NCBI RefSeq assembly: GCF_041438865.1
Contig: NZ_CP109450.1
Coordinates: 1,901,001-1,965,000 of the forward strand
DNA from: Streptomyces sp. NBC_01471
GTDB taxonomy: Bacteria > Actinomycetota > Actinomycetes > Streptomycetales > Streptomycetaceae
Length of the DNA: 64,000 nt
Direction of reading: 5' to 3'
In this document: in pieces, positions 10 through 60,797 of the stretch
How the letters are laid out: every line of letters starts with the position of its first letter
How positions within the stretch are numbered: the stretch's first letter is position 1
Made by a program: the position numbers and the translations under genes
Notes under the pieces: generated by a model
Told to the model about the DNA's origin: nothing
Database searches by the model: none
Seen by the model: the letters and a program-made list of their open reading frames with translations, nothing else

Positions 10-1185
10 GTGGCACCGCAGGCAGACGCCCAGGGGCGCAAGCAGCGGCTGCGAAGACGGCTGGAGCGGCTGATCGGGATCGCCGCCACCGAGGGCAATG
101 AACTCGTACCACTGCGCAACGGGGACGAGATCTTCCCCGCCATGCTGGACGCCGTCCGTGCCGCAGAGCACACCATCGACCTGATGACCTTCGTGTACTG
201 GCGCGGGCAGATAGCCCACGACTTCGCGACGGCTCTGGCGGACCGCGCACGGGCCGGTGTCCGGGTGCGGCTCCTGCTCGACGGCTTCGGCGCCAAGGAG
301 ATCGAGCAGGATCTGCTCGACACCATGGACGCCGCCGGAGTGCAGGTCGCGTGGTTCCGCAAGCCCGCCAGGCTCTCGCCCCTCAAGCAGAACCACCGCT
401 GCCACCGCAAGGCGCTCGTCGTGGACGAGCACACGGCCTTCACCGGCGGCGTGGGCATCGCGGAGGAGTGGTGCGGCGACGCCCGGGACTCGACCGAGTG
501 GCGCGACACCCACGTTCGGCTGCGCGGGCCCGCCGTCGACGGGATCGCCGCCGCTTTCGCCCAGAACTGGGCGGAGTGCCACGACGAACTGTTCGACGAC
601 CGCGACCGCTTCACGGAACACGCCCAGCCCGGCGAGGCCACCGTCCAGGTGGTCCGCGGTTCGGCCAGCTTCGGGTGGCAGGACCTCCAGACCCTGATCC
701 GCGTGATGCTGACCTCCGCCGAGGAGCGCTTCCGGCTGGCCACCGCCTATTTCGCGCCGGACACGTACTTCATCGAGCTGCTGTGTGCCACGGCGCGGCG
801 CGGGGTGCGGGTGGAGATCCTCCTGCCGGGTCCGCACACCGACCAGCGCGCCTGCCGGCTCGCGGGGCGGCACCACTACGCCGCCCTGCTGGCCGCCGGT
901 GTCGAGATCCGCGAGTACCAGCCCACCATGCTGCACACCAAGATCATCACGGTGGACCATGTCGCGTCGCTCATCGGGTCGACCAACTTCAACCGGCGGT
1001 CCCTCGAACACGACGAAGAGGTCATGCTCGCGGTCCTGGACGAGACGTTCACCGCGGCGCTCGACGCCGACTTCGACGCCGACCTCAAGCGCAGCGAGGC
1101 GATCGACCCCGCCCGCTGGAGCCGTCGCGCACTGACCGAGCGGCTGCGGGAGACGGCTGTCATCCCGATCAGACGCTTCCTGTGA
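10..1185 (+). CDS. Phospholipase D-like / cardiolipin synthase-like protein
   Basis: This 391-residue protein has the two HKD catalytic motifs of the phospholipase D superfamily. The first is H132-x-K134-x4-D139, followed by TGG. The second is near residues 308-325 and reads HTKIITVD, then GSTNFNRRS. Such enzymes form a phosphohistidine intermediate and act on phosphodiester head groups. The paired layout is that of bacterial cardiolipin synthases, but no N-terminal membrane helices are visible, so it may be a soluble or peripheral PLD. The GTG start at 10 follows a CAGGAG ribosome site at the very edge of the window. A longer upstream start cannot be fully excluded. The substrate is inferred. 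Confidence 0.9.
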   Translation: MAPQADAQGRKQRLRRRLERLIGIAATEGNELVPLRNGDEIFPAMLDAVRAAEHTIDLMTFVYWRGQIAHDFATALADRARAGVRVRLLLDGFGAKEIEQDLLDTMDAAGVQVAWFRKPARLSPLKQNHRCHRKALVVDEHTAFTGGVGIAEEWCGDARDSTEWRDTHVRLRGPAVDGIAAAFAQNWAECHDELFDDRDRFTEHAQPGEATVQVVRGSASFGWQDLQTLIRVMLTSAEERFRLATAYFAPDTYFIELLCATARRGVRVEILLPGPHTDQRACRLAGRHHYAALLAAGVEIREYQPTMLHTKIITVDHVASLIGSTNFNRRSLEHDEEVMLAVLDETFTAALDADFDADLKRSEAIDPARWSRRALTERLRETAVIPIRRFL

Positions 1186-1251
1186 GACGCGGCCGGGCCC
1201 GGAGGCCGGACGACTCTCGCCAAGACGGGACGATCATGCGATCATTGCCGA

Positions 1252-1668
1252 ATGACAACTGTTAGCGTGCCTCCGGGCCAGGGCGGCGAGCGGGGCGGTG
1301 TGTCCTGCTTCGAGGAGGGCGCCGTCACCGTGGTCGTACCGGTCGGAGACATCGACATCGACGCAGCACCGCCGGTCCGGGAAGCTGTCTCGGGCGCCTT
1401 CGACGCCCGGCGGCCGGTCGTTCTGGACCTGTCCCGGGTCACGTTCGCCGACTCCAGCGCGCTGAACATGCTGCTCTGGGCCAACACCAACGGGGCGTTC
1501 TACCTGGCGGGCCCGGTGCACCAGCAGGTACAGCGCCTGTTCGACGTCACCGGGGTGGAAGGGATCTTCACCACCGCCCCCAGCCGCACCGAGGCCCTGC
1601 TGCTCGCGGCGGAGTCCGCCGCTCAGGAACAGCCCGCGGCACCCGTGGACGAGAAGACCGAGGCCTGA
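1252..1668 (+). CDS. STAS-domain protein (anti-sigma factor antagonist-like)
   Basis: The 138-residue product fits a single STAS fold. It has a beta-rich start (residues 20-40), then VVLDLSRVTFADSSALNMLL around residues 60-80. The DSSAL serine is where SpoIIAA/RsbV-type antagonists are phosphorylated. By family it would bind an anti-sigma kinase and release a sigma factor. No kinase or sigma gene is adjacent, so its partner is unknown. The acidic, Ala/Pro-rich tail after residue 115 looks disordered. No Shine-Dalgarno sequence is visible before the ATG, so the message may be leaderless or start a few codons later. Confidence 0.85.
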   Translation: MTTVSVPPGQGGERGGVSCFEEGAVTVVVPVGDIDIDAAPPVREAVSGAFDARRPVVLDLSRVTFADSSALNMLLWANTNGAFYLAGPVHQQVQRLFDVTGVEGIFTTAPSRTEALLLAAESAAQEQPAAPVDEKTEA

Positions 1669-1719
1669 GGCCTCCCGTTACGGAAGGCCCCGGACCCCGG
1701 TCTGTACGTCTCGGGTCAA

Positions 1720-1748
1720 GCAGGGGCCCGCCCGGAGCGGGCCCCTGC
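1720..1748. terminator. Bidirectional terminator hairpin
   Basis: A perfect 12-bp stem (GCAGGGGCCCGC / GCGGGCCCCTGC) encloses a 5-nt loop. It lies between the ends of the convergent STAS gene and xdhC and can serve both strands. There is no long T run, which is usual for Streptomyces. Confidence 0.8.
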
Positions 1749-1764
1749 CGATCCGGTCGGAGAG

Positions 1765-2574
1765 TCAGCTCCCCTCGGTTTCGAGGGTGCGCAGCACATC
1801 GGCCGCGACGCTCACGGCGATGGTCGCGGGTTCCTTGCCGCCGATGTCGGCCAGCCCGATGGGGGTCTTGATCCGGTCGATGGTGGCCGCGTCATGACCG
1901 CCCTCGGTGGCAAGGCGCTTGCGGAACCGCCCCCACTTGGCCGCCGACCCGATCAACCCGATGGAACCGAGATGGGTCGTGCGCAGGGCGGCGTCGCACA
2001 GAGCGGCGTCCTCGGCATGATCATGGGTCATGATCAGGACGTGGGTGCCTTCCGGCAGCTTCTCCAGCACCTCCTCGGGCAGCAGCGGCGTGTGATGCAC
2101 GTGCACCTGCGCCACCGCGTCCGCGAGCACGCCCAGCCGCCGCTCGGTGAGGATGTCGGCGCGGCTGTCGACCAGATGGAGGTCGAGGTCCTGGCGTGCC
2201 AGGATGCGCACCAGTTCCAGCCCTACGTGCCCGACCCCGAAGACCGCCACCGACCGTACGGCCGGCAGCGGTTCGAGCAGCACCGAGACCGTGCCGCCGC
2301 AGCACTGCACACCGTGCTGGTTGGTCACCTTGTCGTTCAGGGTGAAATCAAGCAGCTCCGGCTCCGGCTTGGCCACGGCGATCATCTCCCGGGACCGATC
2401 GATCACGACGGCTTCGACATTGCCGCCACCGATCGAGCCCCATGTCTCGGTCTGCCCCACAACGAGTTTCGCGCCGGCGTCCCGCGGGGCATGACCGCGC
2501 ACGGTCGTGATGGTCGCCAGCACGCCGGGCTCCCGGCGCGCTCGCAACCGTGCGACCGCGGTGACCCATGTCAT
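1765..2574 (-). CDS. xdhC: XdhC family xanthine dehydrogenase accessory protein
   Basis: The 269-residue protein has an N-terminal XdhC/CoxI domain with a GVQCCGG cysteine motif, then a Rossmann fold starting at VFGVGHVGLELVRIL. XdhC proteins bind molybdenum cofactor, support its sulfuration, and insert it into xanthine dehydrogenase. The gene is the last of xdhA-xdhB-xdhC. Its ATG comes one nucleotide after the xdhB stop, so translation is probably coupled. Both neighbours support the assignment. The strong hairpin at 1720-1748 ends the operon. Confidence 0.93.
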   Translation of the reverse strand: MTWVTAVARLRARREPGVLATITTVRGHAPRDAGAKLVVGQTETWGSIGGGNVEAVVIDRSREMIAVAKPEPELLDFTLNDKVTNQHGVQCCGGTVSVLLEPLPAVRSVAVFGVGHVGLELVRILARQDLDLHLVDSRADILTERRLGVLADAVAQVHVHHTPLLPEEVLEKLPEGTHVLIMTHDHAEDAALCDAALRTTHLGSIGLIGSAAKWGRFRKRLATEGGHDAATIDRIKTPIGLADIGGKEPATIAVSVAADVLRTLETEGS

Positions 2575-2575
2575 G

Positions 2576-5037
<2,462 letters not shown>

Positions 5038-5041
<4 letters not shown>

Positions 5042-6519
5042 GACGGCACCGCCTCAGTGGTTTGCGCGTACAGCTTCAGCAGGCTCTGGCCGAGCATCGC
5101 GGAGCGGTAGTCGGCGCTGGCGCGATGGTCGTTCATCGGGGTGCCCTCGGCCCGCAGTACGGGGGCCGCGGCCTCGACGGTCTCCGCCGTCCACGGCTTG
5201 CCCTCCAGGGCCGCTTCGGTGGCCAGGGAGCGGATCGGGGTGGCGGCCACGCCGCCCAGGCCGATGCGTGCCGTGCGGACGATCCCTCCCTCGATGTCCA
5301 GCGCGAAGGCGACGGCCACGCTGGAGATGTCGTCGAAACGCCGCTTGGCGATCTTGTGGAAGGCCACGACCGGCGCCAGCGGCAGCGGGATGCGCACCGC
5401 ACGGATCAGTTCGCCGGGACGGCGCACACTCTGCCGGTAGCCGGTGAAGTAGTCCGCCAGCGGGACCACGCGCTCCCCGTCGGCGTCGGCGAGCACCACC
5501 GAGGCGTCCAGCGCGAGCAGCACGGGCGGGCTGTCACCGATGGGCGATCCGGTACCCAGATTGCCGCCGAGGGTTGCTCCGTTACGGATGAGCCGGGAGG
5601 CGAACTGCGGGAACAGCTCCGCCAGCAGCGGGACGCTGCCGTCGAGGCGGCGTTCGATCTCGGTGAGCGTCAGCGCCGCCCCGATCTCGATGTGGTCCGA
5701 CGCGACCCGCAGCTCCCGCATCTCGGACAGCCGGTCGACGGCGACCACGCAGTCCGCCCTGCGGGAACGGATGTTCACCTCGACGCCCCAGTCCGTGGAT
5801 CCGGCGACCACCACCGCGTCGGGCCGCTCGCGCAGCAGTTGCAGCGTCTCGGCGAGGGTGTTCCTCCGCAGGAACACGCTGTCGCCCTGGGTGTATTCGG
5901 TGGCGACCGGTGCGGGCGGGGACTGCTCGCGACGCCGGGCCAGCGGGTCCTCGTCGGCGGGCGTACCGACCGCGAACGCGGCATCGCGGATCGGGCGGTA
6001 TCCCGTACAGCGGCACAGGTTGCCGCTCAGCGCGTGCAGATCGAACCCGTTCGGACCGTGCTCGGCGTCGACGGTTTCGGCCGTGCCCGCCGCGGGCGCC
6101 GGTTCCGCGTGCGCGCAGCGGTTGGGGCGGTAGTACTCGGCGGCCATGCTGCAGATGAAGCCCGGTGTGCAGTAACCGCACTGGGAGCCGCCACGGACCG
6201 CCATCTCCTCCTGCACGGGGTGCAGGCCGGGCGGAGTTCCGGGTTCGCCGGGGGTGGCGAGGCCTTCGGAGGTGATGACCTCCTGGCCGTCCAGCGCCGC
6301 GGCCGGGACCAGGCAGGCGTTGACCGCCACCCAGTCGGTGGGCTTGTTCACGCCGGGGCGGGCCACCAGGACCGAACAGGCGCCGCACTCACCCTCGGCG
6401 CAGCCCTCCTTGGTGCCGGTGAGGCCGCGCTCGCGCAGAAAATCCAGCACCGTGGTCTGGGGTGCGGCCGGTGCGATCGGAGTTTCCGTCCCGTTCACCG
6501 TGATCCGGGCCGCTACCAT
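5038..6519 (-). CDS. xdhA: Xanthine dehydrogenase, [2Fe-2S] and FAD subunit
   Basis: The 493-residue protein fuses the two electron-transfer parts of xanthine dehydrogenase. Residues 1-90 are a plant-type ferredoxin domain with Cys40, Cys45 and Cys48 in CAEGECGAC. The second cluster domain follows (CGYCTPGF and CRCTGYRPI). After a linker near residue 200 comes a FAD domain with VVAGSTDWGVEVN and RNGATLGGNLGTGSPIGDSPP. Electrons pass from the molybdenum subunit to FAD and on to NAD. An in-frame TGA four codons upstream makes the ATG at 6519 the earliest start. No good Shine-Dalgarno sequence precedes it, which is notable given the long leader. Confidence 0.95.
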
Positions 6520-6671
6520 GACGGGCCGTCATTTCGCGGCTGGGCAGGTCGGTTCATCATGTTCGCCAATTTCAGGCAGCTTTCTGTGTTCAGACGCGCC
6601 GCGTAAGAGGGGCGGGCGCACATCGGCACGCGACAGCGCTGTGCCGGGAAGTGTGGTGTGGGGACATCAGA

Positions 6672-6694
6672 GATGTGCCGCGATCGGGCACATC
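6672..6694. promoter_or_regulatory. 8-bp inverted repeat in the xdh leader
   Basis: GATGTGCC and GGCACATC form a perfect 8-bp inverted repeat around a 7-nt centre, GCGATCG. ACATCAGA also occurs as a direct repeat on the two sides. It sits about 155 bases upstream of xdhA inside the predicted leader. It could be an RNA hairpin or an operator. Sequence alone cannot separate these. Confidence 0.5.
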
Positions 6695-6706
6695 AGAACG
6701 GCGTGC

Positions 6707-6784
6707 TCAGCAGCCGTGCGCGACCTGACCCGGAATCCAGACCGTAAGGCGGGCGAGGCGAGCCAGATCAGAGCAGGTGTACAT
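6707..6784 (-). CDS. Possible 25-codon upstream ORF in the xdh leader
   Basis: On the minus strand an ATG preceded by AAGGAGG, with a 10-nt gap, opens a 25-codon frame beginning MYTCSDLARL and ending VAHGC. It is a better ribosome site than that of xdhA itself, which lies about 190 bases downstream. The start region also overlaps the palindrome at 6772-6789. It may be a leader peptide coupling translation to xdh expression, or a chance frame. No similarity is known to me. Confidence 0.35.
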   Translation of the reverse strand: MYTCSDLARLARLTVWIPGQVAHGC

Positions 6785-6789
6785 CTGCT
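6772..6789. promoter_or_regulatory. 18-bp near-perfect palindrome at the upstream-ORF start
   Basis: AGCAGGTGTACATCTGCT is symmetrical except for one mismatched pair. Its centre is about 40 bases downstream of the predicted transcription start for xdh. The position suits a repressor roadblock, or an RNA stem covering the small-ORF start codon. No regulator gene is adjacent. Confidence 0.5.
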
Positions 6790-6828
6790 GGTCGCCTCCT
6801 TCGGTGGTTACAGGTCTACTTCCATCGC

Positions 6829-6875
6829 AAGCTAGTGGTTGAATCCACTGAGGTCAAGAGAAGTTGATCTTGACC
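6829..6875 (-). promoter_or_regulatory. xdh promoter with operator-like inverted repeat
   Basis: Read on the minus strand, TTGACC and TAGCTT are separated by 17 bases, a good match to a vegetative (HrdB-type) promoter pointing to xdhA. The TTGACC box is one arm of a perfect 8-bp inverted repeat, GGTCAAGA-8-TCTTGACC (6852-6875). A protein bound there would cover the -35 region. The start of transcription would be near 6822, giving a leader of about 300 nt. Confidence 0.6.
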
Positions 6876-7063
6876 CCTTGTATGACCGACCAGATTCTAC
6901 GTGAGGTGGAAACCGCCCCGGAGAGCGCAGGTCAGCCACCTGGCATGACGACGATCCGGCGATCTCCCGGTGATCGGCGAAGAGCTGAGTCACATGTGGT
7001 CCTGCCCGCGCGCCATGAACCAGGAACCGGACACGGCCCCCCAGGAGACCGCAGCCGCCCCGC

Positions 7064-8512
7064 TCACCCGTGCAGGGCGGGCACCGCCGCCCGGGGTCCG
7101 TCCGCCTCCGCCGCCCCCTTCGGTACGGCCTTGATCGCCAGCGTCGTCACCATCGCCACGGCGAGCAGTCCGCAGGAGGCCCACAGGGCGGGCGCGTAGA
7201 GGTCCGCGCCCTGTGCGCCGCCGCTTCCGGCGACCGTGATCAGGGCGGAGGCGAGCGCCGTCCCGAGGGAGGCGCCGATGCCGAAGCAGGCTCCGTTCAG
7301 ACCGGGCAGCGCACCCTTCTGCTCCTCCGGGGACGAGAGGACGGCCAGGCCGTTGAGCGCGGTGACGCTCAGGCCGTTGTACGTGATGCCGAGCACCGCG
7401 AGCGCGACCGCGAAGGTCCACTGGTGGGTCATGAACGGCACCGCGACGGCGAAGGCGATCAGCGAGCCGGCCGAGCCGAGGACCACGCTGCGGCGCCAGC
7501 CGATCCGCGGGCCGACTATGCCCGCGAGGGGAGCGCCGATCACGCCGATGGCCTGGGCCGGGGTGGCGAACAGCAGTGCCGCGTGCGTGGCGCTCATTCC
7601 GTAACCGGCGTGCGGGTCCTGGGTGAACAGGGGCACGGTGAGGGTGAGCGCCCCGAAGGCACCGGCCAGGGTCAGCACGGTCGTGGCCAGCAGCGGCCAG
7701 GCGCGGCGCGAGACGAGCAGCTTCGTGTCGATGACGGCGTCCCGGGTACCCCGGCCGGCCAGGGCGAACATGACCAGGAAGGCGAGGCCGCCCAGCACGC
7801 AGCCCGCGGTGGGCACGGACAGCCAGCCCCAGGACTCGCCCTGCGCCAGGCCGATCAGTACGCCCGTCAGCCCGAGGGCGAGGAAGGACGTGCCGCGCCA
7901 GTCCATTTGGCCCGTCGCGGTCGGCGGTGTGGCGGGGACGGTCCGGTACACGGCGAGGGTGCCGGCCACCGACACGACGAGACCGGCCAGGAAGATGCCC
8001 CGGAAGCCGACGGTGTCGGCCAGGCGGCCGCCGAACACCGCGTCCACCCCCGCGAATCCGCCGTTGACGGCGGTGATGATGCCCGCGGCGCGGCCGAAGC
8101 CCTTGGGCGAGAGGGTGTCGTTCAGAGTCAGGAACGCCAGGGTGAACAGGGCGGCGGAGAAGCCCTGGAGGACGCGCCCCGCGAGGAACACCCCGATGTC
8201 GGGGGCCGCGGCGCAGGCGATGTCGCCCGCGATGACCAGGAAGCAGCCCAGCAGCATCATCGGCTTGCGGCCCCGGTAGTCGCTGAGCCGGGCCAGGGTG
8301 ACCTGCCCGACCGCCGCGAACAGGAAGAACAGGGTCTGCGAGAGCCCGACGAGCCCGCTGGTGGTGTGCAGTCGGCGCATGACGTCGGGGAGGGCCGGGC
8401 TGAGCATGGTGGCGTTGAGCTGGTAACCGAGCACGGCCAGCGCCAGCGCCAGCAGCATGCCGGGACGGCTGTCCGACCGTGGCGTGTCCGGGCTGTCGGC
8501 ACACGTCGACAT
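7064..8512 (-). CDS. MFS drug/metabolite exporter
   Basis: This 482-residue protein has about 14 hydrophobic segments and the major facilitator signature DYRGRKPMM after the second helix, as in the DHA2-type multidrug exporters. The ATG at 8512 is chosen because AGGAG stands just upstream; the open frame continues further without a ribosome site. The gene is divergent from the GntR regulator at 8920, and the shared intergenic region holds a GntR-like palindrome. Control by that regulator is therefore likely. The substrate is unknown; a nucleoside or purine analogue would fit the adenosine deaminase beyond the regulator, but that is inference. Confidence 0.9.
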   Translation of the reverse strand: MSTCADSPDTPRSDSRPGMLLALALAVLGYQLNATMLSPALPDVMRRLHTTSGLVGLSQTLFFLFAAVGQVTLARLSDYRGRKPMMLLGCFLVIAGDIACAAAPDIGVFLAGRVLQGFSAALFTLAFLTLNDTLSPKGFGRAAGIITAVNGGFAGVDAVFGGRLADTVGFRGIFLAGLVVSVAGTLAVYRTVPATPPTATGQMDWRGTSFLALGLTGVLIGLAQGESWGWLSVPTAGCVLGGLAFLVMFALAGRGTRDAVIDTKLLVSRRAWPLLATTVLTLAGAFGALTLTVPLFTQDPHAGYGMSATHAALLFATPAQAIGVIGAPLAGIVGPRIGWRRSVVLGSAGSLIAFAVAVPFMTHQWTFAVALAVLGITYNGLSVTALNGLAVLSSPEEQKGALPGLNGACFGIGASLGTALASALITVAGSGGAQGADLYAPALWASCGLLAVAMVTTLAIKAVPKGAAEADGPRAAVPALHG

Positions 8513-8722
8513 GGCGACTCCTAGGAGGGAAGGGCGGGGCGGGGAGTACGGAGCGGCCCTGGGGACCGCCGACGGACGGCGAGAGCGATGACGGGGGGGC
8601 AGGTCGGCCCGGGTGTCCGCCGCTGCCGGCCGGTGTCGCCGATGTGTGCGGCGGTGCGGCAGCCGGCGCTCCCGGGGCGGCGGCGCCGCCGCGCCCGGAA
8701 CGCTTTTCACGCACGTCCGCTT

Positions 8723-8762
8723 ACTTGTCAGACAAGGCGTGATGGAGGTCTGGTCTACCTCC
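8723..8762. promoter_or_regulatory. Two palindromes between the MFS and GntR genes
   Basis: The first, CTTGTC-A-GACAAG (8724-8736), is a perfect 13-bp palindrome containing TTGTCAGACAA, which fits the GT-n3-AC core spacing of GntR-family operators. The second is GGAGGT-7-ACCTCC (8744-8762). They lie in a 407-base divergent region (8513-8919) that holds no gene. TTGTCAGACAA recurs at the start of the adenosine deaminase gene (9759-9769). The GntR protein encoded beside them is the obvious candidate ligand. Confidence 0.6.
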
Positions 8763-8919
8763 GCACGCGAAGAGCTGTCAAGCGTCACCGGCGGGCCCGA
8801 CCCCGCCGGGCCCGCCTCCCCCACCGGGCGACAACACCGCAGCCCGCAGCCGTACTGCGTAGGCTGAGCGGCCCGGCGGCGGCAGCCGGGACAGCCCGAT
8901 GACACCCCAGGAGATGGCT

Positions 8920-10994: not shown

Positions 10995-12161
10995 TCAGCC
11001 GCGTCCCGCCCAGTCGACGCAGACGACCAGAGCGTCATCGGCGAGCGGTGCGTCGTTGCGGTAGGCGGCCAGTTCGCGCAGCACGGCGCGCGGAACCTGC
11101 GGCGGGGGCAGGAAGCGGGTGGAGCTCATCGAGCGGGCCAGGGCCTTCTCCCCGTACACCTCACCGGTCGCCGACCGGGTGTCGTACACGCCGTCGCTCC
11201 CGAACAGCAGACGGTCGCCGTCCAGCACCTGGAAGTGCTCGCTGGTGTACTGGGTGTCCTCGAACATGCCGAGCGGCATCTGGGCCTCGAAACGGACCTG
11301 ATCGACCGTGCGGCCGCGCATCCGCCACAGCCGGGGCGAACCCGCGTCCACGACCTCCACATCGCCCGTCGCCAGGTCGAAACGCATCAGGAGCACGGCG
11401 ACATGGGCCTCGCCCCGGTACTGCGCGTAGAGGGCCTGGTCGGCCAGGTACGCCTGGTCCGCCAGGCCGATGCCCGCGCGCCGCGCGTTGCGCAGGGCGT
11501 TGGTCGCGAGGCTGGTGAGGAGCGCCGCGTCGATCCCGTTTCCCATGCCGTTGGTCACGGTCAGTGTCAGGGTGTCGGCGGAGACCGTCCAGTCGTAGTT
11601 GTCGCCGAAGATGGCGTACGCGGGCTCCAGATGGGCGCCGAGTGAGAATTCGGGGCGGTCCAGCGAGCGCCCGGGGAGCAGCTGCCACTGGATCTCGGCG
11701 GCCAGCGTCAGCCGGGCGGCCCGGCGGGCCAGGGTATACAGATCGGTATCGCGTTCCGCGACGAGGATCTCGTGTCCGAGGGCTTCGCAGATGTGTACCA
11801 GTTCGGGGAGCACGGCCTCCTGGTACCGGTCATCGGGGATGCTCACCGACAGGGTGCCCATGCGGTCCCCGCGAATGGTGACGGGCAGATGCACGACCAC
11901 CAGCCCGCTGCCCCTGACGCGCTGCACGTAGGGCTCCTGCGCACCGAACGCACGACCCTGCGGGCTGTCGTGGACGGGGACGGGATCCGATGTGAGGGGG
12001 ACGGGCTCGACCACCTGCAAGGTGGTCACCGCGTAATCGGCCATGCGCAGCACGACACTCACGGCACCGCAGTGCTCACGCAGAGCTTCGGTGACGACAT
12101 CGACCAGCAAGTGGGGCGCCGCCGTGCGAAGCGCCCGCTCCACAGCTGTGAAACTGTCCAC
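10995..12161 (-). CDS. SpoIIE/PP2C-like phosphatase with N-terminal sensor
   Basis: The 388-residue protein has a GAF-like N-terminal half (residues about 10-170) and a SpoIIE-type PP2C half starting near AAEIQWQLLPGR. Such proteins dephosphorylate STAS antagonists in sigma-factor switches. Motifs seen are FGDNYDW and FGSDGVYD. Where active enzymes have GDVxGHG, this protein has TNGMGNG, so one metal-binding Asp is Asn. I recall the same motif in other Streptomyces relatives, so it may mark a subfamily. The GTG at 12161 is a judgment; the frame is open to a TTG at 12278, and no candidate has a clear ribosome site. Confidence 0.82.
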   Translation of the reverse strand: MDSFTAVERALRTAAPHLLVDVVTEALREHCGAVSVVLRMADYAVTTLQVVEPVPLTSDPVPVHDSPQGRAFGAQEPYVQRVRGSGLVVVHLPVTIRGDRMGTLSVSIPDDRYQEAVLPELVHICEALGHEILVAERDTDLYTLARRAARLTLAAEIQWQLLPGRSLDRPEFSLGAHLEPAYAIFGDNYDWTVSADTLTLTVTNGMGNGIDAALLTSLATNALRNARRAGIGLADQAYLADQALYAQYRGEAHVAVLLMRFDLATGDVEVVDAGSPRLWRMRGRTVDQVRFEAQMPLGMFEDTQYTSEHFQVLDGDRLLFGSDGVYDTRSATGEVYGEKALARSMSSTRFLPPPQVPRAVLRELAAYRNDAPLADDALVVCVDWAGRG

Positions 12162-56269: not shown

Positions 56270-57429
56270 GTGCAACGTCCAGCTGTTACAGCCGTGTTGG
56301 CGTCGGCCCTGCTGTTTTCGGCCGTCGGGTGCTCCTCCGGGGGCAGCGACGGGTTCCCCGGCACGGGCCGGGCCCCGGGACCGCACGCAGCGGCCACCTC
56401 GGCGTCGCCCTCTCCGTCCCGGCCCGTCCCGCCAGCGAAGGGGGCGGTCAAGGTGGTCTCGACCCTCACCACGGGTCTCGATTCGCCGTGGGGGGTGGCG
56501 GTGCTCCCCGAGGGAGACCTGCTGGTCTCCTCACGCGATCGGGGGACGATCACCCGGGTCGACGCCGAAACCGGCCGGAAGACGGTGCTCGGGAGGGTCG
56601 CCGGGGTCGCGGCGGCCGGTGAGGGCGGGCTGCTGGGGATAGCGCTCTCCCCTTCGTACGCCTCGGACCATCTGGTCTACGCGTACTTCAGCACCACGTC
56701 CGACAACCGCATAGCGCGCATGTTCTACGACGAGAAGCAGCCTGCGGGGCAGCAGCTGGGTGCACCCGACACGGTCTTCAAGGAATCCCGAAGGGGACCC
56801 TCCACAATGGCGGACGGATCGCGTTCGGCCCGGACAAGATGCTCTATGCCGGGACCGGGGAGACCGGTGACCGGGGGCTGGCCCAGGACAAGAAGTCGCT
56901 GGGCGGCAAGATCCTCCGGATGACACCGGACGGACAGCCGGTGCACGGCGATCCCTGGGCGGACTCCGTCATCTACTCCTACGGCCACCGCAATGTCCAG
57001 GGCCTCGCTTGGGACACGGACGGACGGCTGTGGGCCGACGAATTCGGCCAGGACACCTGGGACGAGCTGAATCTGATCGGGCCCGGGAAGAACTACGGGT
57101 GGCCCGAGGTGGAGGGCAAGGCGGGGAAGACGGGCTTCACCGACCCGGTGGAGCAGTGGAAGCCGGCGGATTCCTCACCCAACGGTATCGCCTATGCCGA
57201 GGGATCCATATGGATGGCATCCCTGCGCGGTGAGCGGCTGTGGCGGATCCCGCTCAACGGCGACAAGCCATCGGCTCAGCCGCAAGCCTTCCTCCAGGGC
57301 ATGTACGGGCGGCTGCGCACGGTGGTCTCCGCAGGCGGGGACAGGCTGTGGCTGGTCACCAGCAACACCGATTCGCGGGGCAAGCCCAAGGCCGGGGACG
57401 ACCGGATCCTGCAGTTGGAGGTGAAGTAG
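56270..57429 (+). pseudogene. PQQ-dependent sugar dehydrogenase lipoprotein, frameshifted
   Basis: The gene encodes a lipoprotein (GTG 56270 after GAAGGGA; lipobox FSAVGC) with a glucose/sorbosone dehydrogenase beta-propeller (DSPWGVAVLPEGDLLVSSRD, GEGGLLGIALSP, then YSYGHRNVQGLAWD, DEFGQDTWDELN). The reading frame breaks at about 56783. TTC AAG is followed by GAATCC where TTC AAG GGA ATC would keep the frame, so one G is missing. The second part continues intact as IPKGTLHNGG to the stop at 57429. It is either a recent pseudogene or a base-calling error. Confidence 0.85.
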
Positions 57430-57495
57430 CCGGGGTTACGCTGAGGAGGGCTCACCGTACGGGAGCCCGGCCGGGGCTCACCACAGGGAGTCTGG

Positions 57496-57687
57496 ATGTT
57501 CAACCTGATAGAGCAGCTCTTCGCGCCCGGGCGCAAGCACACCGAGGACGAGAACAAGCGGCTGGAGCTGTCCCGCGTCGATCTCAACGACGGTGACCCG
57601 GGGCGCGGTCCGATAGACCTGGAATCGGGCACGGTGATCATCCGGGCACAGGACCAGGACCAGAGCCACCCGCCGTCCGAGTCCTAG
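57496..57687 (+). CDS. Small DUF6191-like protein
   Basis: The 63-residue protein begins MFNLIEQLFAPGRKHTEDE and has the core DGDPGRGPIDLESGTVIIR. AGGGAG precedes the ATG by five bases. It resembles the short Streptomyces family I know as DUF6191; no function is known. It is intact although the genes on both sides are broken. Confidence 0.75.
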   Translation: MFNLIEQLFAPGRKHTEDENKRLELSRVDLNDGDPGRGPIDLESGTVIIRAQDQDQSHPPSES

Positions 57688-57799
57688 GGCCACCGGAACC
57701 AGCGCCCGCGCCGGCGTTCAGCCCCGCAGCCCACAGCCCACCTCATCAGCCCCGGCACCGCTGCCGATCGGCAGTCGCAGCTCAGCCAACAGCACAGCC

Positions 57800-57827
57800 C
57801 AGACGGCAGACGGCAGACGGCAGACGA
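57800..57827. repeat. 7-bp tandem repeat (CAGACGG)
   Basis: CAGACGG is repeated four times, the last unit with one change. A perfect 14-bp palindrome, CTGCCGATCGGCAG, lies nearby at 57761-57774. Both are in the gap between the DUF6191 gene and the broken regulator. Confidence 0.7.
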
Positions 57828-57844
57828 CTCAGGAACCGGCCAGC

Positions 57845-60430
57845 TCAGTAGGCACCCTGCCCAGCGGCCTCCGGAACGTCCTCTGCGGCATCCGTGAAAA
57901 GGTGCAGCCGGTGGGCCAGCGCGGCTGCCTCGCCCCGGCCGGTGACGCCCAGCTTGGCCAGGATGTTGGAGACGTGCACGCTCGCCGTCTTGGGCGCGAT
58001 GAAAAGCGTCTCGGCAATCTGGCGGTTGGTGCGGCCCGCCGCGACCAGACGCAGAACGTCCTGTTCACGGCTGGTGAGGCCGAAGTCGTCGACAGCGCGG
58101 TGGGGGTCTCCCGGTGCGGGAGCGGCTCGGTGATCCGCGGCTTCGGTGAGCGGGAGCCTGGCTCGCTGTGCGAGCAGTCTGATCTCCTCGGCCAGCGGTT
58201 GGGTGACGAGCCGGTCGGCCGTCGCCAGGCTGCTGCGGAGCAGCTTCGCGGCGCGTACCCGGTCGGAGCCGTGCGCGAGCAGGGCTGCGGCCCAGTGCCG
58301 GTGCACCTGGGCCACTCGTAGGGGCGTTCCAGTGGCTCCAGGGCCTCGGCAGCCGCGCTCCAGTGCTCCGGCCGGTCGAGACCGTCGGCGCGGGCCAGCT
58401 CGGCACTGGCGTACTGGGCGTGGGCGCTCCAGAGCGGTACGGGTGTGGCGAGCCGCTTCGCCGTCGAGTTGATGAGGGCGAGGGCCTCCACACGGCCCGG
58501 TTCGGCCGCCGGGAGGCCGCGGGTGTTGGCCTCGGCGGTGGCGGCGGCGAGGCCAGGGGCCAGCCGTAGCGCTGGGTGCCCGGAGGGAACCCGGCTTCCA
58601 CCGCGTCCACCAGTACCGCACGGGCCTCGTCCAGCCGCCCCCGGGCGGCCAGGATCCCAAGGCTGAGCCTGGCCAGGGGTATGGAGTGCTGCGGCATCGG
58701 GTCGTGGGTGCTGAAGTGGGTGTTGGCGGAGGCGAAGTGCCCTGCTGCCTCCTCGTGCTCACCACGGAGCAGCGCCAGATCCACCAGCCGCAGGCAGACG
58801 TTGCCCCGGGGCTTGGCGCCCTGCGCGCACCTGAGTACCCACTGCGCGCAGGCTGATGCCTCGTCCCAGCGGCCCAGGGAGTACAGCGATTCAGTCATGT
58901 TGCCCCGGATCCAGGCCTCGTGGTCCCGCAGGCCGTACTTTCCCGCCAGAGCGATCCCGGCGGTCCCGACATCGATGGCCTCGGCGGAACGGCCGATGGA
59001 CTCCAGGTTAGGTTCGACATCAGATTGGTGTGCGCGCGGCAGGCATCGGCGACCAGGCCGAGTTCGGTCGTCCGTGTGAGGGCGGCCTGCATGGTGGCGA
59101 GGCCGGTCTCGATGGCGCCGGAGTCGACCAGCAGGCCGCCGAGAGTGAGTCGGGCGCTCAGTTCGATCTCCTCCGCGCCGACCAGCCGGGCGTAGTCCAC
59201 GGCGCGTTCGGCCGCGGTCAGGCTGTCGGGCCCCGGTTCGTGGAGCATGGCCCAGCCCGCGGCGGTGGCGAGGACCTGGGCATGGCCGGCCGACGGGGCA
59301 GCCCGCGTACCAGCTGCTGGGCAGTGGCGATCTCCCGCCAGCCGTTGCCCCGGGCCAGGTTCTGCTCCAGCTTGGCGCGCTCGGTCCAGAACCAGGCGGC
59401 GCGCAGCGCGTCGTCGGCTCCGCCGTCGATGATGCGCAGGGCCTTCTTGGCGATCTTCAGGGACCGTTCGCGCTCACCGCAGCAGTGGGCGGCGACCACC
59501 GCTTCGGCGAGCAGGTCGAGATAGCGCAGCGCGGATGTCCCTGGTTCGTGGCCGCAGGCCGGGTAGGCGGCGGTGGGATCCATCGGCCGCAGCCCGTCCC
59601 GTACGTCGGCGGGCGCACTGTCCCAGACCTCCATCGCCCGCTCCAGGAGCCGCAGTTGCTCGGAGTGGGCGTGGCGCCGGCGCGCCTCCGCCGAGGCCGG
59701 CAGTACGGCGGGCAGCGCCTTCGCCGCGTCATGGGCGTAGTACCAGTAACCGGCGAGCCGGGTGGTGCGCGCGTCGTCCCGTACGAGCGAGGGATCGCCC
59801 TCCAGGGCCTCCGCGCAGCGGCGGTTGATACGGGAGCGTTCTCCCGGCAGCAGGTCGTCGCTGACGGCCTCACGCACCAGGGAGTGCCGGAAGCGGTAGC
59901 CGCCGCCGTCCGGCGCGGCGATCAGGATGTTGGCTCCGACAGCGGCCCGCAGCGCCTCGATCAGGTCGTCCTCGGACAGCCGGGCCACGGCGGCGAGCAG
60001 CGGATACTCGACGGTCGAGCCGCCCTCGGCCGCGAACCGGACAACGCGCTGGGCGTGGTCGGACAGTGCCTCGACCCGGACCAGCAGAAGATCGCGCAGT
60101 GAGTCGCTGATCCCGGAGACCGAACAGTTGCCGCTGCAGACGGCCAGTTCCTCGACGAAGAAGGCGTTGCCGTCGGAGCGGGCGAAGATCTCATCGGCCA
60201 GCGAAGCCTCCGGCTCGGCGGCGAGGATGCCGGTCAGCTGGAGGCGCACCTCGGACCGGGTGAAACGGGCCAGCTCGATCCGGCGGACCGTACGCAGCCG
60301 GTCCAGTTCGGCCAGGAGCGGCCGCAGCGGGTGGCGGCGGTGGATGTCGGCCCGGTAGGTGGCGACGACCACGAGGCGTCCGCTGCTCAGGGTCCGGAAG
60401 AGATAGGCGAGCAGATGGCGGTCCGACAGT
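57845..60430 (-). pseudogene. Decayed LAL-type LuxR ATPase regulator
   Basis: Conceptual joining of frames gives the middle and C-terminal parts of a large LuxR-type regulator. It includes an ATPase region (VVVATYRADIHRRHPLRPLLAELDRL), a tetratricopeptide-like helical region and a final LuxR helix-turn-helix (LTSREQDVLRLVAAGRTNRQIAETLF). The N-terminal part with Walker A is missing: similarity begins abruptly near 60430 at a hairpin. Four one-base deletions shift the frame near 59287, 59010, 58561 and 58312. Two convert TGGGCC to TGGCC. No full-length protein can be made. Confidence 0.8.
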
Positions 60431-60455
60431 GCGGCACCCGATATTCGGGTGCCGC
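60431..60455. terminator. Hairpin at the pseudogene junction
   Basis: GCGGCACCCGA-TAT-TCGGGTGCCGC, a perfect 11-bp stem, lies 37 bases after the 56-residue gene and exactly where the regulator homology begins. It is probably that gene's terminator, brought next to the regulator by the deletion. Confidence 0.65.
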
Positions 60456-60491
60456 CTGCCTCGGTGCCGGTCCCCGGCTGCGCGCCATTCA

Positions 60492-60662
60492 TCAGGCCGC
60501 GTGGACAAACCGGTCGCGGAGCGATCTCACCGCCCCCTGCGTATCGTGCCGGCCGGAACGGCGGGCGACTCTGCGGGTCTTCAGCGCCTGACGTGCGAGC
60601 CGCACGGCCTCGGCCCGGCGGGTGAGTTCGGCGGCGTAGGCCTCCTGGAGCTCCTGCTGCAT
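60492..60662 (-). CDS. Small basic protein (56 residues), unknown function
   Basis: An ATG (or GTG one codon earlier) preceded by AGGGGGA encodes a 56-residue helical, Arg/Ala-rich protein beginning MQQELQEAYAAELTRRAEAV. There is no membrane segment. The ribosome site and following hairpin support a real gene. I do not recognise a family. Confidence 0.6.
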   Translation of the reverse strand: MQQELQEAYAAELTRRAEAVRLARQALKTRRVARRSGRHDTQGAVRSLRDRFVHAA

Positions 60663-60797
60663 CACGGTGTTCCCCCTGTGACGGATGTGGCGGAAGCCGT
60701 TCGCGGCTTCCTGCGATGCCTCGACTTTCGTCTGCCAGGGGGTCCGCCGCATCGGGCGAGTGCCGCATCCTCATGGCGGAGGGGGCCTCAGGCGCTG

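Follow-up and report, generated by a model that had tools for sequence, protein, structure and literature searches.

A LuxR-type LAL regulator of Streptomyces sp. NBC_01471 is very probably a recent pseudogene, lying next to a frame-broken sugar dehydrogenase

The part of PMC3282765 on which we draw characterises LAL regulators by an N-terminal ATPase end and a C-terminal LuxR HTH end, and names MalT as their type. Two proteins of S. coelicolor treated in the same part, SCO0877 and SCO7173, offer a comparison for the regulator studied here: its intact orthologues resemble them in having an N-terminal ATPase with a P-loop, 1032 residues and a C-terminal LuxR HTH, whereas the copy of Streptomyces sp. 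NBC_01471 has neither start codon, nor ATPase motifs, nor open frame. Like an ordinary bacterial pseudogene, disabled by a deletion, a short duplication and small indels, this copy carries several disabling lesions, has intact orthologues in relatives and has no close second copy. It differs from one in its substitutions, and since their pattern still looks almost constrained, the pseudogene would be young.

The window, by which we mean the whole stretch of 64,000 nucleotides that was analysed, covers positions 1,901,001-1,965,000 of contig C1 (7.9 Mb) in a genome of 8.49 Mb and three contigs; the G+C content is about 70%. Lesions were defined by alignment with Streptomyces sp. NBC_01306, SID10853, S. 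beijiangensis and a genome labelled G266. In the best segment of the regulator, the amino acid identity is 95% for NBC_01306, 92% for SID10853 and 78% for S. beijiangensis. G266 (88% in DNA) came first among the 312 genomes of the genus that were scored, out of a sample of 392 drawn from a larger group, so that a closer relative may exist; all comparisons rest on one genome of the window's species. The NBC strains' project produced Nanopore assemblies polished with Illumina reads, according to a section of PMC11260486. Judging from its strain name, NBC_01306 would belong to that project, and the SID10853 assembly looks like a short-read SPAdes one from its contig title. The two genes of interest are adjacent and convergent, and are laid out as follows (window positions).

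56270..56782 (+): 5' part of a glucose/sorbosone dehydrogenase, first frame; PF07995 profile 1-92 over 56294-56782; start codon chosen by eye
56782..56785 (+): dehydrogenase frame break, one base short compared with four aligned relatives, with an adjacent substitution
56776..57429 (+): 3' part of the dehydrogenase, second frame; PF07995 profile 111-328 over 56776-57426; also seen by tblastn
57496..57687 (+): small intact ORF of 63 aa between dehydrogenase and regulator, DUF6191 (PF19690, E 1.9e-20)
57845..60420 (-): remnant of the putative LuxR-type LAL regulator pseudogene, running from 60420 down to 57845; GerE in the fragment 57896-58324
60420..60421 (-): junction of the 504-bp deletion in the regulator, from DNA alignment with relatives
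60349..60350 (-): in-frame 3-bp loss in the regulator; the stretch is kept in all four aligned relatives
59296..59299 (-): regulator frame break 1, a homopolymer one base short compared with NBC_01306 and G266
59005..59014 (-): regulator frame break 2, a 5-bp tandem duplication missing in all four aligned relatives
58551..58552 (-): regulator frame break 3, one base short compared with relatives, outside any homopolymer of three or more
58314..58315 (-): regulator frame break 4, one base short compared with NBC_01306, SID10853 and S. beijiangensis, not in a homopolymer

An ORF of 86 aa (60492-60752, minus strand), situated just upstream of where the regulator would have started, aligns with NBC_01306, SID10853 and G266; no Pfam family was found for it (searched as 60495-60752). 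A search of Rfam gave zero matches at gathering thresholds.

The initial annotation had counted one frame break in the dehydrogenase and four in the regulator, and both tblastn and DNA alignment with relatives bear this out. The dehydrogenase changes frame once, near 56782 (by the ORFs of the relatives, its two frames join near 56780), and the regulator near 59298, 59010, 58552 and 58314, which leaves five frame segments; for the regulator, the one gene on which it was run, a whole-genome protein search confirms the breaks. All of them fall inside about 2.5 kb, where 2.6 kb had been proposed. The same annotation described five one-base deletions: four of the breaks are indeed single missing bases, while the fifth, at 59005-59014, is the 5-bp tandem duplication. 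The largest lesion, the deletion at 60420/60421, had been overlooked. It takes 9 nt of upstream sequence, the start codon and codons 1-165, and its junction shows a 3-nt CGC microhomology. The P-loop, which starts at residue 43 of the NBC_01306 protein, lies inside the deleted part; the stretch at residue 151 of that protein we take to be the Walker B motif. The in-frame loss at 60349 removes one codon conserved in the four aligned relatives.

The gene is very probably a recent true pseudogene of a 1032-aa LAL regulator with AAA_16 at its N-terminus and a LuxR HTH at its C-terminus. Ordinary decay, rather than faulty sequencing at GGGCC, would account for the breaks, because the gene has undergone a 504-bp deletion, a 5-bp duplication and three single-base losses, which are lesions of the kind that define a pseudogene. 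Pfam finds AAA_16 at residues 14-184 and GerE in the NBC_01306 orthologue. The window copy fails two of the three tests of a functional LAL regulator. The C-terminal LuxR-type HTH is present, as a detached piece (GerE, E 1.6e-19). The N-terminal ATP-binding end with its Walker A motif is missing: no P-loop pattern occurs in the six frames of 57800-60774, and Pfam gives no family for the 518-aa ORF at 59221-60774. The single long open frame, 1032 codons in NBC_01306, SID10853 and S. beijiangensis, is here replaced by the five segments. The 504-bp deletion removed the start codon and the P-loop, and the 5-bp tandem duplication and the three single-base differences split the remainder into five segments, the last of which bears the HTH alone. 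One of the lesions, to which we assign no order, would have freed the regulator from selection, the others then accumulating recently.

When the whole genome was searched with the 1032-aa protein of NBC_01306, five adjoining pieces were recovered (residues 161-546, 545-642, 632-860, 791-872 and 868-1032). A further 37 matches came up, all of them weak: the longest, on contig C2, covers residues 12-429 at 31% identity, and the rest are for the most part short and located at the HTH end. For residues 1-160 of the intact protein, the genome offers elsewhere nothing closer than a distant match (31%). Since these 37 matches are weak, we concluded that the genome holds distant members of the family but, as far as the protein search reaches, no close second copy. 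Among the relatives, counted over the best 80 of 477, 78 of 80 loci show the regulator in a single frame that begins no later than residue 30 and reaches at least residue 990; four of these 78 matches cross a stop, always past the HTH and not before residue 1016. In the two remaining loci, the regulator is cut by a contig end (L132) or lies in three frames on a contig of 3,185 bp (L106, S. phaeochromogenes NRRL B-1248), which is either a broken copy or a poor contig. Hence, frame breaks in this regulator are perhaps not unique to the window's clade. In a second set of 36 loci, three of which repeat loci of the 80, 34 have the regulator in a single frame, the exceptions being G266 and a locus of G003 that matches poorly. 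Against the pseudogene reading one may hold that each single-base loss could be a read error, and that the regulator is also found in three frames in L106, on its contig of 3.2 kb.

The substitutions bear on the age of the loss. The dN/dS of the regulator is 0.22 between the window and NBC_01306, compared with 0.17 between NBC_01306 and SID10853 and 0.21 between NBC_01306 and G266. As the pairwise value is still 0.22, the decay must be recent. Polarised with SID10853, nonsynonymous and synonymous codon changes number 34:53 in the window against 13:41 in NBC_01306 (odds ratio 2.0, Fisher P = 0.07); in the lineage of the frame-broken G266 they number 31:44 against 11:29 (P = 0.16). Relaxed selection on the window regulator would thereby be weakly supported, and the pattern of substitutions seems to fit a recent loss, for which it is by itself a weak argument.

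The status of the dehydrogenase is less clear. Its GSDH domain spans the protein, PF07995 being matched in two pieces (1-92 and 111-328 of 332), and the protein belongs to that family. Near 56783 one base fewer is present and a substitution stands beside it. The break may stem from a genuine mutation of very recent date, or else from an isolated error of the assembly. We give about even chances to the view that both genes are truly broken, the lineage having given up a putative common pathway. The dehydrogenase lies within 5 kb of the regulator match at 77 of the 80 loci (best 80 of 477), and two of the three loci where it was unmatched are cut short; furthermore, among the 209 CDS compared no others are cleanly broken. 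A joint loss fits less well with G266, which lost the frame of the regulator yet has an unbroken frame in the dehydrogenase. Of the 80 loci, 76 have the dehydrogenase in one frame. At L144 (Streptomyces sp. or43, about 8685-8790) it is apparently interrupted by some 100 extra bases and a frame change, and the regulator there is in one frame.

The other view, whose chance we put somewhat below even, is that the regulator is a true pseudogene and that the break in the dehydrogenase is a separate, isolated assembly error in a gene intact in life. No relaxation of the dehydrogenase was detected: its dN/dS is 0.13-0.16 between the window and NBC_01306, SID10853 or G266, and its nonsynonymous to synonymous changes number 6:20 in the window against 15:28 in NBC_01306 (P = 0.42). 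The break is moreover a lone one, adjoining a G run, and the gene has no other frame lesion. It must be weighed against this that the compared CDS outside the regulator hold no other single-base break of this sort, and that a pure error of run length does not need the substitution beside the missing base.

The statement about the compared CDS comes from a scan of frames. A CDS counted as matched when at least 80% identical over 40% of its length, which retained 209 of 315 CDS of NBC_01306 (223,000 nt, compared with one 404-kb block of the window genome) and 196 of 325 of G266; starts were chosen by the G+C of codon positions, off-frame stretches below 30 nt were left uncounted and those starting in the first 90 nt were set aside (three per comparison onto the window genome). 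The scan recovers the dehydrogenase and the regulator, and in both comparisons these are the only genes with clean internal breaks. Three other signals were judged to be alignment noise: N1306 1807113, a repeat-rich CDS, and G266 2048129 and 2114714, short stretches near C-termini. In the reverse direction, CDS of the window genome gave 6 stretches in 5 CDS onto NBC_01306 and 2 in 2 onto G266, each result including the remnant of the regulator. The other frames of the window had been said to be intact. This holds for the 46,544 of its 64,000 bases which could be compared with CDS of relatives, where no further clean break was seen; the remainder was judged from the layout of ORFs alone, in which nine neighbouring same-strand pairs abut in different frames. 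Genes of an operon often abut in this way. Two other differences appeared in the window. About 1 kb (10995-12024) is common to the window and SID10853 and missing between collinear matches in NBC_01306 and G266, and a stretch 71% alike to it occurs elsewhere in the genome. Over nearly 6 kb (1182-7066), no CDS of NBC_01306 or G266 was matched in the compared blocks; this segment may be strain-specific, or its counterpart may be located elsewhere in those genomes.

Far less probable is a systematic error of base calling, by GGCC methylation or compression of G runs, that would have produced all the breaks in an intact gene. In its favour, a single base is missing at four of the five breaks, two of which touch G/C runs, and Nanopore consensus errors do occur at Dcm motifs and homopolymers, as a passage of PMC6591954 reports. 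Such an error yields neither a deletion of 504 bp nor a tandem duplication of 5 bp, and should be scattered across genes, while the other compared genes are free of clean breaks. We aligned 255,876 nt of NBC_01306 with one 404-kb block of the window genome, in which GGCC methylation was probed by its expected footprint. GGGCC sites were unchanged in 524 cases and substituted in 245; one gap was seen in 2, two gaps in 2, more in 8 and an insertion in 5. For GGCCC, the corresponding numbers are 549, 242, 4, 1, 6 and 11 (sites reading GGGCCC enter both counts). Among the single-gap cases, one looks clean, at 2,062,762, outside the window. Over the aligned bases, 113 one-base deletions stand against 109 insertions; of these, 22 and 21, respectively, fall in G/C runs of at least three bases. 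No excess of one-base loss at GGGCC was found elsewhere in the genome, that is, in this block. Since the motif sites are unchanged and deletions match insertions, no systematic calling error is visible.

The motif itself is not recovered at the breaks. Three of them had been read as GGGCC turned into GGCC, and in comparison with relatives none of the five shows this change. Around the four regulator breaks, to a distance of about 20 nt, the coding strands of NBC_01306, SID10853 and G266 contain no GGGCC; in S. beijiangensis the motif stands close to the break at 58314 only. At two of the five breaks, 59298 and the dehydrogenase site, the plus strand may be read as a G run shortened by one base. 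Because GGGCC is lacking near the regulator breaks in the three nearest relatives and the lesions are of other kinds, the pattern appears to be a product of frame repair by eye. Of the two alternatives originally offered, true decay would thus stand for the regulator, on account of the 504-bp deletion, the 5-bp duplication, the single-base losses at 58552 and 58314 outside homopolymers and the intact close relatives. Systematic error at GGGCC is rejected on these alignments, with sites unchanged, deletions about as frequent as insertions and the motif lacking near the regulator breaks in the three nearest relatives.

We give almost no credence to the idea that the pieces work as split proteins, for example a free HTH regulator made from 57845-58765: the domain of the HTH piece is intact, but the start codon and the P-loop are lost, four more breaks separate the pieces and Pfam assigns no family to the 518-aa ORF. 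The 504-bp deletion and the multiple lesions led us to set aside programmed frameshifting and split genes.

The orthologue of G266 (L030 / L060) resembles the window copy in being frame-broken at the place of the 58314 break: it has its own 4-bp loss at that codon, just before the HTH. It differs in that this is its only loss, residues 1-880 being in one frame, as is its dehydrogenase. The DNA identity of the regulator is 92.5% between NBC_01306 and G266, 92.0% between the window and NBC_01306 and 89.6% between the window and G266. The two breaks are probably independent, since NBC_01306 is intact and, by pairwise identities, nearer to either genome than the two are to each other.

In an annotation, the regulator is best labelled a pseudogene, and the dehydrogenase should carry a flag. 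Relatives alone, without reads, were sufficient to separate decay from systematic error. A literature search limited to a title listing found nothing pertinent on pseudogenes versus sequencing errors in Streptomyces. The placement of a missing base by eye hinges on the frame repair which is chosen, and a motif inferred from such repairs may be an artefact. It is conceivable, if unlikely, that the window's clade is losing a widespread LAL regulator in parallel, the lineage of the window and G266 having been broken independently at the same pre-HTH codon. If this were true, it would mean a mutational hotspot or a repeated selection for losing the DNA-binding end.
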